Shown here piece after piece: positions 6,362 to 14,251 of a DNA stretch of 64,000 nt (within the stretch, counting starts at the first letter, position 1; each line of letters opens with the position of its first letter). Under the pieces are notes generated by a model. That model saw only the letters and a list, made by a program, of their open reading frames with translations, was not told the DNA's origin and ran no database searches. Source of the stretch: Bacteroidota bacterium (lineage in GTDB: Bacteria; Bacteroidota; Bacteroidia; Bacteroidales; F082); assembly GCA_020444415.1 (NCBI GenBank), contig JAHLLA010000001.1, positions 806,001 through 870,000 of the forward strand, in the 5' to 3' direction. The position numbers and the translations under genes were made by a program.

Positions 6362-7219
6362 ATGACATATTTAAAAAAGATAGTATATAGCCTTATTTTC
6401 TTCATTATATGCAGCCAGGTGGTGGCTCAAAACAACTCCTTTAATGGTTTCAGCGAAGACGAAACCGTATTGTACACCATGAACAAACAGGTAGGGCAGT
6501 TTGTGCGGCGGTTCAATATGGAAGAAGACCCTTACGGGAAACGCTTGCCTGAAAATGATAGTAAATACCACAACAACCAGCTCAGGGAAGAGATGCTCCC
6601 TATTATGTTTGACACCTACAATCCAAGGACTTCCGGAAAGCTGAAACAATATTTTATTGATGATGTTACCGATGAAGAAAACCCGGTATACCTGAATTTC
6701 CTGGATAAAAACTGGTATGCCGAGGTGTCTGCCACTTTTATGGCCAATGGCGACGAAGTAAACATCATCTTATTCCTGACACTCGAAGAGGAAAACCTGG
6801 GTTCCAAGTGGATCATCAGCAATGTATACTACAGCTATTTCCCTAATCTTTTTCCGCCTACAGAAGACAGCATACATCAACAATATTTTCTGCACCCGCA
6901 AAGTCATGAACTTGATTTCATGAACCTGCATCGGGCCCTTGATGATCCATCACACATTGAACTATACGCCTCTAACAATTACAGGCCTGACTATCTTTCA
7001 CTATTCTTTTACCAAATGAAAAAAGGACAATTGAAATTTAAAGAGATCGATTCGGTAAAGTTTCATTTCTTCCAGATCGAAAATTGGTATTTTGAGCTTT
7101 CATACTTTAACAGGAACGACACCAATTCCGGTTGGTTGATTTCAAATCTTAAATTTGTAAACAACGAAGAGAAAAAAGAACTTATTAAATCATATAAACT
7201 ATGCGCTATCGATCAATAG
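6362..7219 (+). CDS. Secreted protein of unknown function
   Basis: 285 residues from the ATG at 6362, chosen because it starts a clear signal peptide (MTYLKKIVYSLIFFIICSQVVAQ|N); the 39 residues upstream in frame look non-coding. The mature part is rich in aromatic and acidic residues with two similar halves: LNFLDKNWYAEVSATFM ... WIISNVYYSYF and FHFFQIENWYFELSYF ... WLISNLKFV. This suggests an internal duplication of a beta-rich unit. No named family recognised. It overlaps the start of the LRR gene by 19 bases, so the two are probably translated from one message and may act together outside the inner membrane. Confidence 0.75.
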   Translation: MTYLKKIVYSLIFFIICSQVVAQNNSFNGFSEDETVLYTMNKQVGQFVRRFNMEEDPYGKRLPENDSKYHNNQLREEMLPIMFDTYNPRTSGKLKQYFIDDVTDEENPVYLNFLDKNWYAEVSATFMANGDEVNIILFLTLEEENLGSKWIISNVYYSYFPNLFPPTEDSIHQQYFLHPQSHELDFMNLHRALDDPSHIELYASNNYRPDYLSLFFYQMKKGQLKFKEIDSVKFHFFQIENWYFELSYFNRNDTNSGWLISNLKFVNNEEKKELIKSYKLCAIDQ

Positions 7220-9849
7220 TTTTACTCTTTACATGCTTTTCTATTCTTTTTACCGCCGTTTCGCAGGAAACCGTGGAGCTTACTCCCCAGCAAGTTGAAG
7301 AATATACCGAACAAAGCAAACAGATCATCCAGTTTTTGGAAGGCACACTTAACTTTCTTGGTGATGATACGCAGTTGCCATCAGATAAAGATGTGATCAT
7401 CAATGAAAGCTATCTGAAGTTTTTCAGGGATGATGAAGTACAGGTTGAGGATGACCTGGACGAAAACCGCGAGATATCTTTAAGCAAGGATGTGCAAGCT
7501 TACCTGAAAGATGTGGACTTCTTTTTTAACAGCGTGACTTTTACATTCAACATTGAAAAAGTAGAACAGCAGGTAAATGATAATGGTCAGTTGTTTTTTA
7601 AAGTAACTATGAACCGCCACCTGCAAGGTATAACTATTGAAAATGACACAGTGGATAATAATATGATCCGCTATGCCGAAATTAACCTTGACCCTGCCCA
7701 AAAAGACCTGAAAATAGTGAGTTTGTATACCACCAAGCTGAATGAAAAGCAAGAATTACGATACTGGTGGGAAAATATGGCTGTCACCTGGAAGAACTTT
7801 TTTAGTGAATCGGTATTGATCTATGATACACTGCCTTTCCATAAAATTGTATCGTTTGACGACAGCACCATTGTGGTCGAAAAATGGGTAAATACGATCA
7901 GGGTGGATACATTTTTAGTGCAGGAAGGCGATACCATCAACTATGGCGCCGTAGCCGAGCATCTGGCTACCGACCAGGTTTATACTGTTTCGGATACCAT
8001 ATCACAAATTAAACCCGATACCATCAATGTGGATGCAACACCGATTTATAAACAGCTTATGCGGTTTAAGAAGATCAAAATAATTGATGTATCCAACAAT
8101 ATGATGATAGGAAACCTCGATCCGGTTTCAGAATTAACAGAACTTACCGCTATTGATTTCTCAAATACACTGATTGATGATCTTGCTCCGCTTCGAAACC
8201 TCAACCAACTGCAAAAGCTTGATTGTTCCGGAACCCCCGTTACCGACATCAACCCTCTTCGCTATGCCACCAACCTCATTGAGTTGGATTGTTCCTTGAC
8301 CGGAATCGCTGATTTTTCAGTATTAGAGCATTTAAGACAACTTGAAAAACTGGACGTAAGCTATACACCCATTTCGTCGGTTGATATGCTTGCAAACCTT
8401 ACCCATCTAAAGCAACTGAAGCTATCAGGTACCCGGGTAACGGATGTATCCCCTATAGATCAGTTAACACAACTGGCATACCTGAACATCTCAAATACTG
8501 AAATGACATCACTGGCATCCGTTAGTGGCTTTTCAGGACTAAAAAACCTGAACATCGACAGCACGGCCATTGCGGACCTATCGCCTATAAGCAGCCTTCA
8601 AAAGCTTTCCGTATTACAGGCAAACCATACGCCGGTGAGTGAGCTGTCGCCATTGGAAAACCTGGAAGAACTGGATATGATCTATTGCGATAATAGCGGT
8701 ATCAACGCACTGAAAGCACAGCAGTTTATGGAAGTGAATGAGGATTGTCTCGTCATCTTCAACTCTGAAAAATTATTTGAATGGTGGCAAACGCTTTCAA
8801 AGGACTGGAAAAATATCGTAAGCCAGGATATTAACATAAGCGAAACAATTACCAAGGAAGAATTGCACGAGATCATCAACCGCTCATCACTTGACATTCA
8901 GGTGCCGGTAATTAATTCATTAGCGCCGCTTAGTATGCTTTACAGGCTTGAAAAACTGGATGCCGGCAGCACGCAGGTATCTGACCTGGAACCTTTGGGT
9001 TCGCTGAATCATCTCAGGGAATTGAATATAAACAATACCCGTGCAACTTCTCTCGAGCCTTTGATCAAACTGGATAACATCAGGATCATCCGTTTCGAAA
9101 ATACCGGAATTGATAACCTGATGCCATTACAAAACAACACACAACTGCAAATCGTTTATTGCGACAATTCAAAAGTTACCACTGATAATGTATTGGAATT
9201 TAAAAACAAACTGCCTGATTGCCTCGTAGTGTATCAGTCGGACAATATGAATTTATGGTGGTTGAACCTTGATAATGACTGGAAAGAGCTGCTTAAAAAA
9301 GAGTCAGAGGTTGACGGGGCGATGACCCGTGAAAACATGCAGCGCGTAGCCGATATAAAAAAACTGAACATCTCCGATAAATTATCCATCCGCAACCTTG
9401 AACCATTAACAGTGTTTCTGCAATTAAACGAATTAATCATTAGTAATACGGCCATCTCTGATATTTCGCCAATTACAAACCTTCCCAATTTAACAAAACT
9501 CGAAGTAACAAGCAGTCCGATTACTTCCGTAGAAAGAATTAGCGGATTAGAGCAACTCCAGCATTTGAGTATTGAAAATACCCCCGTTGATGATATTGAT
9601 CCCTTGTATGAACTCAAAGGGCTTATTTCGTTAAATATCAGCGGCACACAGGTAAAAAAACTCAAGGGTATCGAAGACCTGAAAAAACTCGAACTTTTAG
9701 CTATCAATAACACAAATATTAAAAATCTGAAACCGGTCGAGGAGCTTGTCAATCTAAAAGAATTCAGATGTTTTAATACTTCGGTACGGTCTTCAAAAAT
9801 TGAAGATTTCAAAGCCGAACATCCCGCTGTGGAAGTAGTATATTACTAA
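7201..9849 (+). CDS. Large secreted modular leucine-rich-repeat protein
   Basis: 882 residues with a signal peptide (MRYRSIVLLFTCFSILFTAVSQ|E). Residues about 25-185 form a non-LRR N-terminal domain. Three LRR blocks follow (about 283-510, 555-675 and 720-870) with 21-24-residue repeats of the type L-x-x-L-x-x-L-x-I-x-x-T-x-I-x-D-I-x-P-L, like SDS22/internalin-type LRRs. Each block ends in a similar cap: YCDNSGI...DCLVIF, YCDNSKV...DCLVVY and RCFNTSV...VEVVYY. Linkers carrying a WW pair and a second Trp occur before or between blocks: YWWENMAVTWKNF (about 189), EWWQTLSKDWKNI (about 528) and LWWLNLDNDWKEL (about 686). No C-terminal T9SS sorting domain is evident. Ligand unknown; LRRs bind proteins. 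It overlaps the upstream gene by 19 bases. Confidence 0.85.
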   Translation: MRYRSIVLLFTCFSILFTAVSQETVELTPQQVEEYTEQSKQIIQFLEGTLNFLGDDTQLPSDKDVIINESYLKFFRDDEVQVEDDLDENREISLSKDVQAYLKDVDFFFNSVTFTFNIEKVEQQVNDNGQLFFKVTMNRHLQGITIENDTVDNNMIRYAEINLDPAQKDLKIVSLYTTKLNEKQELRYWWENMAVTWKNFFSESVLIYDTLPFHKIVSFDDSTIVVEKWVNTIRVDTFLVQEGDTINYGAVAEHLATDQVYTVSDTISQIKPDTINVDATPIYKQLMRFKKIKIIDVSNNMMIGNLDPVSELTELTAIDFSNTLIDDLAPLRNLNQLQKLDCSGTPVTDINPLRYATNLIELDCSLTGIADFSVLEHLRQLEKLDVSYTPISSVDMLANLTHLKQLKLSGTRVTDVSPIDQLTQLAYLNISNTEMTSLASVSGFSGLKNLNIDSTAIADLSPISSLQKLSVLQANHTPVSELSPLENLEELDMIYCDNSGINALKAQQFMEVNEDCLVIFNSEKLFEWWQTLSKDWKNIVSQDINISETITKEELHEIINRSSLDIQVPVINSLAPLSMLYRLEKLDAGSTQVSDLEPLGSLNHLRELNINNTRATSLEPLIKLDNIRIIRFENTGIDNLMPLQNNTQLQIVYCDNSKVTTDNVLEFKNKLPDCLVVYQSDNMNLWWLNLDNDWKELLKKESEVDGAMTRENMQRVADIKKLNISDKLSIRNLEPLTVFLQLNELIISNTAISDISPITNLPNLTKLEVTSSPITSVERISGLEQLQHLSIENTPVDDIDPLYELKGLISLNISGTQVKKLKGIEDLKKLELLAINNTNIKNLKPVEELVNLKEFRCFNTSVRSSKIEDFKAEHPAVEVVYY

Positions 9850-10297: not shown

Positions 10298-10828
10298 TCA
10301 GGCTTCGATGCCCAGTGCATCTTTAATGAAGCCGGTCCATTGTTTGATACGTTCATCGGTTAAATCCGACTGGTGGTCCTCGTCAATGGCCAGGCCATAG
10401 AACATACCGTTTTCAGCACCTTCTGAATTTGTGAAAGTATAGCCGGTGGTAGGCCAGCTTCCGATCACATTGGCATGAACGGTTTCAGCTTCTTCCTTTA
10501 AAGTACCAAGATCGTCCACAAAATGATCGGGATACAGCACCTGGTCACCCAAACCGAAAAGTGCCATTGCTTTGCCGGTCAAGTCATGTTCCTCCAATTT
10601 CCTGAAAAAAGTCGCCCATACATTGTCCGAAGAAGCTTCTTTCCAATGGTCGGCACCGATAGTTGAACCTCCCAGGATCACCAAATCGTAGGATTCGATG
10701 GTATCCACGTTAAAACTGGCTACATCAAACATATCGGTGAGCTCCGGTTTAAACATGGCATACATCTTTTTGGCAACGCGCTCTACATTGCCGCCTTTGC
10801 CCCAGTATAATAAAACTATTTTCTTCAT
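10298..10828 (-). CDS. Flavodoxin
   Basis: 176 residues, the size of long-chain bacterial flavodoxins. MKKIVLLYWGKGGNVERVAKKM is the phosphate-binding loop region, slightly changed from the common T/S-x-T-G-x-T pattern (here WGKGGN). YDLVILGGSTIGADHWKE is the second FMN-contacting loop, and FGLGDQVLYPDHFVDDLGTL with TTGYTFTNSEG are the third loop and long-chain insert. It is an electron carrier in the cytoplasm. The start codon follows a CAAAATTA element (10851-10858), which reads TAATTTTG on the minus strand, a -7-like box about 22 bases upstream of the start. Confidence 0.87.
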   Translation of the reverse strand: MKKIVLLYWGKGGNVERVAKKMYAMFKPELTDMFDVASFNVDTIESYDLVILGGSTIGADHWKEASSDNVWATFFRKLEEHDLTGKAMALFGLGDQVLYPDHFVDDLGTLKEEAETVHANVIGSWPTTGYTFTNSEGAENGMFYGLAIDEDHQSDLTDERIKQWTGFIKDALGIEA

Positions 10829-10920: not shown

Positions 10921-11790
10921 TTATTGCCTGTCGATCAGTTCCAGTGCATTAGCAATGGCAGTCTCCATAAAAGTATAGACCGCTTCACGTTGATCATCCA
11001 TTCTCATGCTAATCAGTTTATCACCTGACAATACTTCACCGGTCCATTCATGCGTATGCCATGCACCGGGCGACATAGCTGGCGGTAATTTTGAATAGTC
11101 CATCCCCTTTTCTGACCACGTGATAACAAAAAAATAGGGAAATTCGTAATATTTGTCAGGCGGTGCCATTCCAATGCTAAAAGAGGTAAGCACTTTTTTA
11201 TCATCAAATTTTTGAGGAATATGGCAGCCTTCGTCAAAATGATGCGGCCAGACCCTTATCTCTTCCGAAGTATCGTAACGTGTTGCAAAGTATTCCAATA
11301 CCCTGTGTCCATTAGTTCTGTAATGACTCAGTTCTTCGAAATAATCGAAAAATGGTATATCAAAAACAGCTCCACCATCAATAGGATGAAATGGAATCTC
11401 AAAATGAAGTTGGTTTTTAAAACCTGATACATCTAGCTTCAAATTTTCAAATTGCTCCATGAGCCAAGTAAAAACCTCTGTATTACTTTTTCCTTTTAGT
11501 TCAATCTCATTAGCAACTTCTAATGCTTCATTTACCATCATTAAAACAAGCCGGGGATAGTTAAGCGCAACTTTAAACCGGCCTTTTGGGGTTTCAATTG
11601 TCTGTCCGACCAACCATTGATTACCAGGTATCCAAATCGCACTCGTGTGGCTATCATCGGGCTTTTCGTTTATAAAATATTTACCTGCCAGTGCAATATA
11701 ACGACAAGCATGGTGCAATATATCCGAGCATACCGATAGCTTGTTACCATCCGGCAAACTCAATTGTATCCAGTTTTCAGAAGTCTTCAT
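10921..11790 (-). CDS. Unknown protein, fourth gene of the ergothioneine-type operon
   Basis: 289 residues, no signal peptide or membrane segment, not recognised. Notable motifs are RVWPHHFDEGC (about residue 190), SIGMAPPDKYYEFPYFFVITW (about 215-236, aromatic rich), and PPAMSPGAWHTHEWTGEVL (about 245-265), where closely spaced His residues could bind a metal. A loosely similar order (WP-x-HFD, a G-x-x-P-x-D/E-x-x-Y-x-EPY region, then W-x-x-G) is found in uncharacterised proteins of other phyla; this is recalled pattern similarity, not a search result. It follows the DUF427 gene after 11 bases, so it should be co-expressed with egtB and egtD. This makes a role linked to histidine betaine thiols the leading guess. 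Confidence 0.7.
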   Translation of the reverse strand: MKTSENWIQLSLPDGNKLSVCSDILHHACRYIALAGKYFINEKPDDSHTSAIWIPGNQWLVGQTIETPKGRFKVALNYPRLVLMMVNEALEVANEIELKGKSNTEVFTWLMEQFENLKLDVSGFKNQLHFEIPFHPIDGGAVFDIPFFDYFEELSHYRTNGHRVLEYFATRYDTSEEIRVWPHHFDEGCHIPQKFDDKKVLTSFSIGMAPPDKYYEFPYFFVITWSEKGMDYSKLPPAMSPGAWHTHEWTGEVLSGDKLISMRMDDQREAVYTFMETAIANALELIDRQ

Positions 11791-11801
11791 ATTACACTAT
11801 T

Positions 11802-12086
11802 TTATTCATTTATTACTTTCACACCTTTCCAAAAAGCGATGAAATCTTTTATTTTACTGGCAGCTTCTTTAGGTTCAGGATAATACCAGGCAGCATCTTT
11901 ATTCTTTTCTCCTTCCACAATGATATTATAATATGATGCTTCGCCTTTCCAGGGGCAAGTTGTATGCGTTTCTGTTTTTTCAAAGAAATTCTCATTGATA
12001 GATCCGGGAGGAAAGTAGTGGTTGCCTTCAACAACAATAGTATTCTTACTTTCTGCCAGTATTTGATTTTTCCAGATTGCTTTCAT
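11802..12086 (-). CDS. DUF427 domain protein
   Basis: 94 residues, nearly the whole length a DUF427 domain. Seen: KAIWKNQILAES (N-terminal strand), VEGNHYFPPGSI, then THTTCPWKGEASYYNI (the CPWKGxAxYY signature of the family), followed by AAWYYPEPKEAASKIKDFIAFWKGV. The family is small, cytoplasmic and without an established biochemical function. It is placed 7 bases after egtD and 11 bases before the unknown fourth gene, so it is part of the same transcript. Confidence 0.88.
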   Translation of the reverse strand: MKAIWKNQILAESKNTIVVEGNHYFPPGSINENFFEKTETHTTCPWKGEASYYNIIVEGEKNKDAAWYYPEPKEAASKIKDFIAFWKGVKVINE

Positions 12087-12093
12087 TTCAGAT

Positions 12094-13077
12094 TTATTTT
12101 AGTTTCCATAAGGTATCTACGAAATACTGTTTCCCATCGAAAAAGTGTTTCATTACTTTAAAATGCTGGCTTTCTGCCATCATTTCCAGTTCTGAAATGC
12201 TGTACTTTTTCGATACTTCAGTATGTATAAATTCGTCTTTATTAAATTCAACTGACCATTCAAGGGCATCAAAATGTACTACCTGATCTTTTTTTGAAAC
12301 CAGGTAACTTAACATCTCCCCATCCACGGGCTCATAAAATGCATAATGTGAGAAACTGTCCGTTTTAAAATCGGCGCCCAATTCCCGGTTCATCCGTTTC
12401 AGTAAATTCAGGTTAAAACTTGCGGTAATACCATGCGGATCATCGTAAGCCAATCTTATAATATTTGGATTTTTTCGCAGGTCCACGCCCATCAACAACA
12501 AGTCTCCTTCGTTCAAGCTGCTATGTATCCTGCCGATAAAATTTTCGGCTTCTTTATACCTGAAATTTCCAATATTGGCGCCCAGGAACAACACTACATT
12601 TCGCCTGTTTTTTATTTTTGAGAGTGTGGTTAACGCCTCAAAATATTCCAAATTCACCGGTTTTACATCCAGGTCAGGCATCTCGTCATGTAATTTTGAT
12701 TGTAACTCATCTAATATATGATTGGAAATATCTACCGGATAATAATTGAATTCAGCCTTGTTATCCAGCAGGTATTTTAACAGGAGCTTTGTTTTGTAGC
12801 CATCTCCTGCTCCGAATTCGATAAGATTTAAAGGTTCGTCAAGCGCATGGATGGCATCGCAAATATCTTTTCGCTGTTGCGATAGAATTTCATATTCGCA
12901 GTTTGTGAGATAATATTCGGGCATGTTCATGATCTGTTGAAATATCTTATCGCCTTCTGCATCATAAAAATACTTGGATGAAAGCGATTTCGGATGCTGC
13001 GACAATCCATACATCACGTCTTTTCCAAAAGCCGAAGTTTTTCTCTGAATGGTTCCTGTTGTTATCTTTTCGTTCAT
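12094..13077 (-). CDS. egtD: L-histidine N-alpha-methyltransferase
   Basis: About 327 residues, the usual length for EgtD. The ATG at 13075-13077 (MNEKITTGTIQRK) is preferred over an upstream GTG that would overlap egtB by 23 bases. EgtD trimethylates the alpha-amino group of histidine with SAM to make hercynine. Seen: YYLTNCEYEIL, IEFGAGDGYKTKLLL (SAM-binding glycine-rich loop), FLGANIGNFR, and MGVDLRKNPNIIRLAYDDPHGITASFNLNLL, all typical of the Methyltransf_33/EgtD family. It lies 7 bases after egtB. The pairing gives the two core ergothioneine steps. OvoA-type pathways fuse similar domains in one chain, which is not the case here. Confidence 0.92.
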   Translation of the reverse strand: MNEKITTGTIQRKTSAFGKDVMYGLSQHPKSLSSKYFYDAEGDKIFQQIMNMPEYYLTNCEYEILSQQRKDICDAIHALDEPLNLIEFGAGDGYKTKLLLKYLLDNKAEFNYYPVDISNHILDELQSKLHDEMPDLDVKPVNLEYFEALTTLSKIKNRRNVVLFLGANIGNFRYKEAENFIGRIHSSLNEGDLLLMGVDLRKNPNIIRLAYDDPHGITASFNLNLLKRMNRELGADFKTDSFSHYAFYEPVDGEMLSYLVSKKDQVVHFDALEWSVEFNKDEFIHTEVSKKYSISELEMMAESQHFKVMKHFFDGKQYFVDTLWKLK

Positions 13078-13084
13078 TTGATTT

Positions 13085-14251
13085 TTATTTTGCCAGTCTG
13101 ATACCACTAAATTGCCACCTTGCCCAGGGATGGAAAAAATTCCTGTATGTATATCTTGAATGCCCCGGAGACGTATAGACAGAAGCCCCCCGCAACACTT
13201 TCTGATTCACCATGAACTTACCGTTGTATTCACCTACAGCTCCTTCAGCACGTTTGTAACCGGGATATGGAAGATAAGCGCTTTCGGTCCACTCCCAGCG
13301 TTTACCCCATTCAAACTTTGATGAGGCTGCCTCCCACTCAAATTCAGTAGGTAATCGCATCCCTTTCCAACGGGCAAATGCAAATGCTTCGTAATAACTG
13401 ATATGGGTTACCAATTGATTTGGATTTAGCGGCTGTAGGCCTGTGAGCGAATAATTCATCCACTTTCCATCTATGTTGTGCCAGTGATGAGGTGCTGAAA
13501 TGTTCTCCTGGTTCACCCATTGCCAGCCCTCGTCATGCCATAGATCAAAATTTTGGTAACCGCCATCATTCATAAATTCGAGGTATTCAGCGTTGGTAAC
13601 CAGTCGGTCAGCAATTTGATATTCGTGTAAATATACTTTATGAACACCCAATTCATTGTCATAACAAAAACCATCACTCTTATGTCCGATCTCGTATATG
13701 CCTTCGTCCATCTTTACAAACCCCATCTTATCTTTAAAATAAGTATGACCGCTGAAAGGAAACGGTCCTTCATATTTGGGGAATAAAGGATGGAGCCCAA
13801 AAGTATATTTCAGGTCTGTCCAGAAGAGCTCCTGGTGTTGTTGCTCGTGCTGCAAGCCCAACTCAAGCAGCAATTCAACTTCGGCAGAGATTCCGGATTG
13901 AATAAATGCCATCATCTCCTGATCGACAAATGACCGGTATGCATAAACCTCTTCTACCGTTGGCCGGGTTAGATCACCGCGTTTATGACGTGAAATCCGA
14001 TCTCCTTCAAAATTGTAATACGAGTTGAAGAGCAATGGATAATCCTCATTATAAAGCAGATAGTTTTCTTTATGTTTCTTTAAAATAAAGGTCTCGAAAA
14101 ACCATGTGGTATGACCCAGGTTCCATTTGGGGGGGCTGGTTTCTGTAATTGGTTGCGCCACATAATCTTCAGTTTTCAGGGGTCTGCAAAGGTTCTCCGA
14201 ATAATTTCTAATTCGTTTAAACCTGTCCAAGATATTCTCACTATTCATCAT
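13085..14251 (-). CDS. egtB: Ergothioneine biosynthesis iron sulfoxide synthase EgtB
   Basis: 388 residues, shorter than mycobacterial EgtB. The N-terminal DinB-like domain carries the expected iron ligands: LGHTTWF gives His47, and LQHEQQHQE gives His135 and His139 (HxxxH). The C-terminal part (about 165-388) is an FGE-sulfatase-like fold, with LPTEFEWEAAS, WEWTESAY and VLRGASVYT...RYTYRNFFHPWARWQFSGIRLAK. EgtB oxidatively joins hercynine to a thiol donor. Because no egtA (glutamate-cysteine ligase) or egtC gene is adjacent, the enzyme may use cysteine directly, as known for some EgtB types; this is inference. It starts with ATGATG and either codon may be used. TerC is divergent 132 bases away. 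Confidence 0.9.
   Translation of the reverse strand: MMNSENILDRFKRIRNYSENLCRPLKTEDYVAQPITETSPPKWNLGHTTWFFETFILKKHKENYLLYNEDYPLLFNSYYNFEGDRISRHKRGDLTRPTVEEVYAYRSFVDQEMMAFIQSGISAEVELLLELGLQHEQQHQELFWTDLKYTFGLHPLFPKYEGPFPFSGHTYFKDKMGFVKMDEGIYEIGHKSDGFCYDNELGVHKVYLHEYQIADRLVTNAEYLEFMNDGGYQNFDLWHDEGWQWVNQENISAPHHWHNIDGKWMNYSLTGLQPLNPNQLVTHISYYEAFAFARWKGMRLPTEFEWEAASSKFEWGKRWEWTESAYLPYPGYKRAEGAVGEYNGKFMVNQKVLRGASVYTSPGHSRYTYRNFFHPWARWQFSGIRLAK

Follow-up and report, generated by a model that had tools for sequence, protein, structure and literature searches.

The window, by which we mean the whole 64,000-nucleotide stretch of DNA analysed, contains an ergothioneine operon whose last gene encodes a 289-residue protein of a family that occurs in a conserved neighbourhood and in near-strict co-occurrence with EgtD, next to either type of sulfur-inserting enzyme, with Rieske fusion enzymes nested within the gene-bearing genomes. 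The reading that we favour, with a confidence just short of even, is that this two-lobed alpha/beta protein, which stands beside DUF5996, acts after ergothioneine has been made, as an ergothioneine-using component of redox or detoxification chemistry. The gene is unlikely to encode a biosynthetic step and is probably accessory, belonging to a redox pathway, so far undescribed, that uses ergothioneine.

The reading frame at 10921-11790 begins with ATG and encodes 289 residues, reproducing exactly the coordinates and length given in an earlier note made from the sequence alone; the gene runs on the minus strand, and the plus strand of the interval contains many stops. Inspected by eye, the N-terminus is not hydrophobic, in line with the lack of a signal peptide reported in that note, and the protein is probably cytosolic. 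The gene and its surroundings are as follows:

10298..10828, minus strand: long-chain flavodoxin, 92 bp downstream of the 289-residue gene
10921..11790, minus strand: coding sequence under study, 289 residues, DUF5996-like clade with WPHHFD motif (reading frame and translation, homologs, hhalign)
11802..12086, minus strand: DUF427 (PF04248) protein, 94 residues, operon partner (Pfam E 4.2e-33)
12094..13107, minus strand: EgtD, histidine N-alpha-methyltransferase (TIGR03438, 305.9 bits, cut-off 290.9)
13085..14251, minus strand: EgtB, sulfoxide synthase, opening the operon (TIGR03440, 511.5 bits, cut-off 360; PDB EgtB matches)

The operon thus reads EgtB-EgtD-DUF427-289-residue gene, all on the minus strand, with a gap of 7 bp after EgtD and one of 11 bp after DUF427. 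The listed EgtD frame opens with GTG, and we judge an ATG present at 13077 to be the likelier start. Terminator-like sites in the stretch are as frequent as expected by chance (4 versus 3.7) and all lie within EgtB and EgtD, so that it is the spacing alone from which we infer co-transcription. Compared with the known EgtB/EgtD operon, the window has that operon, with EgtB and EgtD above their NCBIfam cut-offs, whereas the 289-residue protein itself has no NCBIfam match at E ≤ 1. Elsewhere in the window, an 882-residue reading frame at 7201-9849 contains many leucine-rich-repeat-like stretches, as judged by eye from its translation.

Searched on its own, the window protein had no real match in Pfam (only a chance match to Nup188, E 0.16), none in NCBIfam at E ≤ 1, and none among PDB sequences, PADLOC or PHROGs. 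As the NCBIfam library includes the EgtE model TIGR04343 and, we presume, a model for EgtC, identity with EgtE or with the glutamine amidotransferase-like EgtC was rejected. Profile searches of PDB sequences returned nothing in one case and two weak matches in the other (E 0.036 and 0.28). The order of its motifs, in our view, resembles that of DUF5996 (Pfam PF19459), a family without known function; a PF19459 search with the window protein gave no match, so that the gathering score of 25 bits was not reached. At the level of profiles, the relationship was clear: hhalign aligned 14 homologs with eight DUF5996 proteins over 266 columns, that is at full length (probability 99.0%, E 6.1e-18), and HMMs built from either set recovered members of the other. 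The description of the protein as unrecognised therefore held for the single sequence and not for its family, which lies distantly beside DUF5996. The HMM search that the earlier note had proposed turned up this distant kinship and no known enzyme family of unrelated function.

Among the 78 rows of our wide alignment (77 loci from the best 80 of 319 relatives plus the window protein, leaving out L093 with an internal stop, L101 with an open N-terminus and L103, which is cut), six matched PF19459 at E ≤ 0.001, and one protein, from L097, passed its cut-off (31.4 versus 25 bits). A tree of 50 rows (27 of the 78 with 23 more, but without L034 and L035 of DUF5996) placed the window clade on one side of a branch with 100/100 support and the canonical DUF5996 proteins on one side of a branch with 100/99 support, with five PF19459 proteins carrying W-x-HH-[F/S]-D falling between them. 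Owing to these separate sides and intermediate proteins, the 289-residue protein is filed, on sequence comparison, as a distant relative in a separate sister clade beside DUF5996 and not as a member of PF19459. Two genomes (G262 and G354) carry both types, making the clade and canonical DUF5996 paralogs. D186 and G207 are invariant across all 50 joint rows; the window clade has D45 at the position of the canonical H of NHWW (12/12 rows) and P182 at that of the W preceding the H/G in the canonical F/Y-W-x-x-x-D motif (W in 11/12), while positions H183/H184 are mixed among canonical proteins. The clade is often found beside egt genes, in contrast to the nine canonical DUF5996 loci examined; the neighbourhoods of three canonical plasmid genes, from 36 records, were uninformative.

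In the loci examined, the clade spans Bacteroidota, Balneolota, records titled Chlorobiota, one Gemmatimonadota and one Marinimicrobia, as well as two cyanobacterial plasmids (L116 and L117), bearing out the suggestion of a conserved, undescribed family in several phyla. An open-access full-text search found no paper naming DUF5996, and literature searches returned nothing pointing to the family of the 289-residue protein.

Conservation in the wide alignment is concentrated in a few short segments, all on the minus strand:

11713..11715, minus strand: conserved H26 (72/78)
11644..11658, minus strand: DDSHT, residues 45-49 (D45 78/78, D46 73/78)
11392..11409, minus strand: LHFEIP, residues 128-133, in the linker joining the model's halves (H129 71/78)
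11233..11250, minus strand: WPHHFD, residues 181-186 (W181, H183, H184 and D186 each 78/78)
11155..11178, minus strand: SIGMAPPD, residues 205-212 (G207 and D212 invariant)
11128..11139, minus strand: PYFF, residues 218-221 (Y219 78/78)
11044..11061, minus strand: WHTHEW, residues 244-249 (W244 78/78, W249 59/78, H245 14/78, H247 6/78)

D212 is present in 78/78 rows and R158 in 73/78. WPHHFD is intact in all 78 rows, a count that is partly selected since the loci were gathered in part with this motif as a search pattern. Unselected evidence comes from 14 homologs of a whole-genome search run without the motif filter, that of the window genome included, in which it is invariant (14/14), and from six further rows found by profile or tblastn and checked separately (6/6). 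This invariance, together with the presence of the gene in 14/61 related genomes, makes the observation more than chance. Of the histidine-rich signature originally noticed (HFD at residues 184-186, HTHEW at 245-249, next to SIGMAPP at 205-211 and YEFPYFFVITW at 215-225), the HFD part proved conserved, with H184 and D186 in 78/78 rows, but the HTHEW histidines did not. Conserved histidines, whose absence from homologs had been named as speaking against the idea, are present at H183, H184, H26 and H129.

An AlphaFold2 model from 78 sequences (pLDDT 96.8, pTM 0.93) predicts two alpha/beta halves, each alpha-beta(5-6)-alpha with 12 strands in total. The first helix (15-39) is followed by six strands and a second helix (103-116); after a linker that contains LHFEIP come a third helix (148-169), another six strands and the last helix (264-287). 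The similar secondary structure of the halves suggested an internal duplication, which hhalign of the N-terminal against the C-terminal half did not support, as it shows no repeat. A DinB-type thiol S-transferase was rejected; the protein has no DinB match in Pfam (EgtB does match DinB_2), and the model is alpha/beta, not a four-helix bundle. Foldseek searches with the whole model against the PDB and the viral models of BFVD gave nothing at E ≤ 0.001. The best VIA match was a chain of yeast Mediator (Z 7.2 over 106 residues), which we set aside as a common arrangement. When the N-terminal half was modelled alone (pLDDT 89.1), frataxin/CyaY proteins filled the top 20 of the 50 VIA matches listed, at Z 5.7-6.6 and thus all below 8; the best of these is a weak match (Z 6.6, 93 residues, rmsd 4.1), and Foldseek reached E 0.13 at best. 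Frataxins also appear among the VIA matches listed for the whole model. Each half shares the alpha-beta(5-6)-alpha order with frataxin/CyaY, but the 289-residue protein has two halves in one chain, Z below 8 and no PDB sequence match; the frataxin-like hints from the model are weak and below the trusted level.

To describe the neighbourhood, genomes of 84,980 species were scanned, yielding 319 relatives of which the best 80 were used, a choice biased to close relatives. Neighbouring reading frames within about 5 kb (less at contig ends) were clustered without preset targets, and cut genes were added by tblastn. With more than 40 aligned residues required, the best 80 of the 319 loci contain EgtD in 39, DUF427 in 36, a Rieske-glutamate synthase fusion (Rieske-GltB2) in 32, an EanB-like enzyme in 20, a Rieske-TPP fusion in 19 and EgtB in 13 (a tblastn tally at any length gives 37 for DUF427 and 14 for EgtB). 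At least one of these six neighbours is present in 72/80 of these loci and none in 8/80, and EgtB and an EanB-like enzyme never occur together (0/80). Clustered neighbours of the six types point in the same direction as the clade gene in 145/146 cases, and in some loci (L067 and L069) Rieske-GltB2 shares one base with the clade gene. Linkage to EgtD within 5 kb extends over three phyla with differing gene orders; EgtB and EgtD both lie within 5 kb in L082 (Gemmatimonadota) and L084 (Marinimicrobia). Flavodoxin is near the clade gene in 4/80 of the best 80 of 319 loci.

The EanB-like enzymes are rhodaneses by domain search, and one matches the sulfurtransferase 6ktv, which we take to be EanB, at E 2.7e-146. 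Relative to the anaerobic EanA-EanB pathway of Chlorobium limicola, described in excerpts of PMC11767532 and PMC9516567 that make no mention of the clade family, related loci carry an EanB-like enzyme with EgtD and the clade gene, whereas the sulfur enzyme of the window itself is EgtB.

The phylum sample supplied four more clade loci: L144 has EgtD and EgtB nearby, while L134, L145 and L146 lack egt, DUF427 and Rieske neighbours alike. The cyanobacterial plasmid loci have no egt or Rieske neighbours (by annotation in L116 and by tblastn in L117). In L116, a gene annotated as NAD(P)H-hydrate epimerase (11466-12212) lies two genes after the Acaryochloris member; a cluster near the gene in L062, L079, L089 and L098 (4/80, best 80 of 319) is presumably the same enzyme. 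The DUF5996 loci with W-x-HH-[F/S]-D have clade-like neighbours in 4/5 cases: G176 lies between Rieske-GltB2 and an EanB-like gene, G188 beside Rieske-TPP, G200 beside Rieske-GltB2 and G380 beside EgtB-EgtD-DUF427. No such neighbours were found at G371 or at the nine canonical DUF5996 loci (L132, L133 and L135-L141).

Complementarily, we evaluated co-occurrence with EgtD at the genome level. In 61 related genomes, of which 14 have the gene and 27 have EgtD, EgtD is present in 14/14 with the gene and 13/47 without it (Fisher test, 8.9e-7), and within a single family in 12/12 versus 7/25 (p 2.7e-5); these p-values overstate independence, owing to kinship among the genomes and overlap between the samples. 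In a phylum sample of 296 genomes, a profile search matched 29, of which 28 carry EgtD, against 98/296 overall; six of the 98 EgtD matches score below 60 bits, and removing them leaves 28/29 unchanged. All 21 matches above 180 bits are in EgtD-bearing genomes, as are the five DUF5996 proteins with W-x-HH-[F/S]-D, at 37-80 bits; three weak ones at 20-24 bits comprise two with EgtD and one (G195) without. PF19459 occurs in 17/296 phylum genomes, 15 of them with EgtD, one of the 17 (G299) being a fragment. The only two in EgtD-lacking genomes (G111:C38:22612-23358 and G122:C7:18349-18978) are DUF5996 proteins without the HH-x-D region.

For the 41 loci (best 80 of 319) without EgtD within 5 kb, a search of 40 genomes, leaving out L105, located EgtD elsewhere in 37; the three in which it was not found (L057, L085 and L101) are all MAG records. 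The samples overlap in that at least 12 of the best 80 loci lie on contigs equal in length to matched contigs of the 61-genome sample and are treated as identical to them, and several of the 40 genomes have EgtD coordinates equal to those of phylum-sample genomes. The converse does not hold, as 13/27 EgtD-bearing relatives and 70/98 EgtD-bearing phylum genomes are without the gene. In one relative (G020:C20:34405-35309), the EgtD match is in two pieces in different frames, and the adjoining clade gene is open. Together, co-occurrence and conserved neighbourhood make the ergothioneine link of the clade strong, a link that the earlier note had drawn from operon position.

Three kinds of Rieske protein are found among the clade neighbours. 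Pfam confirmed the Rieske plus Glu_synthase architecture of Rieske-GltB2 (about 537 residues, FMN glutamate-synthase-like, for example L109:3345-4952) and the Rieske domain with three TPP domains of Rieske-TPP (about 647 residues, pyruvate-oxidase/acetolactate-synthase-like, for example L060:3376-5316). The third, a membrane protein that resembles ferric reductases and carries a fused Rieske domain, occurs in eight loci (best 80 of 319; for example L088:7580-8680), in several of which it directly precedes another conserved reading frame (cluster c8). We know of no function for the Rieske-FMN glutamate-synthase-like fusion. Admitting full-length enzymes or high-identity fragments, the two fusions are present in 10/14 related genomes with the gene (Rieske-GltB2 in G011, G013, G025 as a fragment, G032 and G050; Rieske-TPP in G004, G012, G013, G020 as a fragment, G027, G031, G032 and G050) and in 0/47 without it. 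Within EgtD-bearing genomes alone, the comparison is 10/14 versus 0/13 (p 1.2e-4). Neither fusion was found in the window genome, indicating that these partners are not obligatory.

DUF427 shows a similar restriction, occurring among the 61 relatives in EgtD-bearing genomes only (16/16), namely in 12/14 genomes with the clade gene (two being without DUF427) and in four EgtD-bearing genomes without it, and thus merits the same question as the 289-residue gene. The 94-residue single-domain protein is not homologous to the 289-residue protein by Pfam. According to the excerpt of PMC4287342, DUF427 has a beta-tent fold, as do MsrB, GFA and others, with no sequence likeness to these. An open-access full-text search found no paper in which ergothioneine and DUF427 appear together.

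Several other roles could account for parts of this pattern. That the gene fills a missing biosynthetic step, such as the EgtE-type PLP-dependent C-S cleavage, or aids EgtB, is quite unlikely. Its place at the end of the EgtB-EgtD operon fits such a role, and with EgtE above the NCBIfam cut-off in 0/61 relatives (weaker matches are also seen in all 14 control genomes), C-S cleavage has no assigned gene. However, the gene is missing from many EgtD-bearing genomes (13/27 and 70/98), is found beside EanB-like enzymes in 20/80 of the best 80 of 319 loci, and its product matches no PLP enzyme in Pfam or NCBIfam. Since EanB adds sulfur directly to hercynine, as excerpts of PMC11767532 and PMC9516567 describe, a lyase would be unnecessary at the EanB-like loci. 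The partnership with both EgtB, which depends on O2, and the EanB type, which does not, further argues against a biosynthetic step; the excerpt of PMC9516567 presents these as unrelated routes to ergothioneine. A part in degrading or remodelling ergothioneine or hercynine is unlikely, even if four Balneola loci (L051, L053, L066 and L067) have LysR, HutH (histidine ammonia-lyase) and HutU (urocanase) near the gene, and Pfam identifies a permease-OpuAC fusion transporter with an ATPase near it in L072, L074, L079 and L084. Such fusion transporters, we believe, resemble the ergothioneine importer EgtU. The one HutH and one HutU tested from Balneola, in turn, pass the ordinary cut-offs, with HutU below those for thiourocanate hydratase, and the company of ergothioneine biosynthesis genes in 43/80 of the best 80 of 319 loci would be odd for catabolism.

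It is decidedly unlikely, judging from sequence and model, that the protein acts as a metal or Fe-S/persulfide chaperone to EgtB, an iron enzyme, or to the Rieske partners. The conserved His and Asp, the three kinds of neighbouring Rieske protein and the alignment of the N-terminal half, and in the matches listed of the whole model, with frataxin/CyaY would suit this function, but Z below 8 and Foldseek E of at least 0.13 are at the level expected of common arrangements, the gene also accompanies EanB-like enzymes, which are rhodaneses, and H183/H184 are mixed in canonical DUF5996. Finally, a generic lifestyle gene travelling with ergothioneine genes without any working link could explain why PF19459 co-occurs with EgtD (15/17) though nine canonical loci are not EgtD neighbours. 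The conserved linkage, with EgtD within 5 kb in 39/80 of the best 80 of 319 loci, across three phyla and in varied gene orders, largely refutes this explanation, and co-occurrence inside a single family (12/12 versus 7/25) also speaks against it, leaving it very improbable.

In the reading that we favour, of a protein using ergothioneine after its synthesis, the 289-residue protein would bind ergothioneine or hercynine in a predicted pocket of invariant acidic, histidine and aromatic residues (D45, WPHHFD, D212, Y219 and W244), whose aromatic residues, along with the acidic ones, would suit the trimethylammonium group. Ergothioneine would then serve as co-substrate or cofactor while the protein, jointly with DUF427, carried out a reaction of redox or detoxification type, and in many species electrons might pass to or from the Rieske-FMN or Rieske-TPP partner enzymes. 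The Rieske neighbours, the ferric-reductase-like Rieske protein and flavodoxin suggest electron transfer at the clade loci. More tentatively, we consider it possible that the clade is one core component of an ergothioneine-dependent redox pathway not yet described, in which the protein and DUF427 would handle ergothioneine or an adduct and the Rieske-FMN and Rieske-TPP enzymes would pass electrons.

What ergothioneine does physiologically is still not understood, according to the abstract of PMC9516567. A gene set that tracks EgtD whatever the synthesis route, yet is missing from many producers, points to a pathway that uses ergothioneine, and relatives almost confined to EgtD-bearing bacteria are a good lead to that use. 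The work provides named genes for knock-out in the search for bacterial ergothioneine use and a way into the function of DUF5996, and of DUF427 beside ergothioneine genes. If the reading as an ergothioneine-dependent redox pathway is true, DUF5996 as a whole would be an ergothioneine-using family, and one pathway would be common to producers relying on either of two unrelated ergothioneine chemistries.
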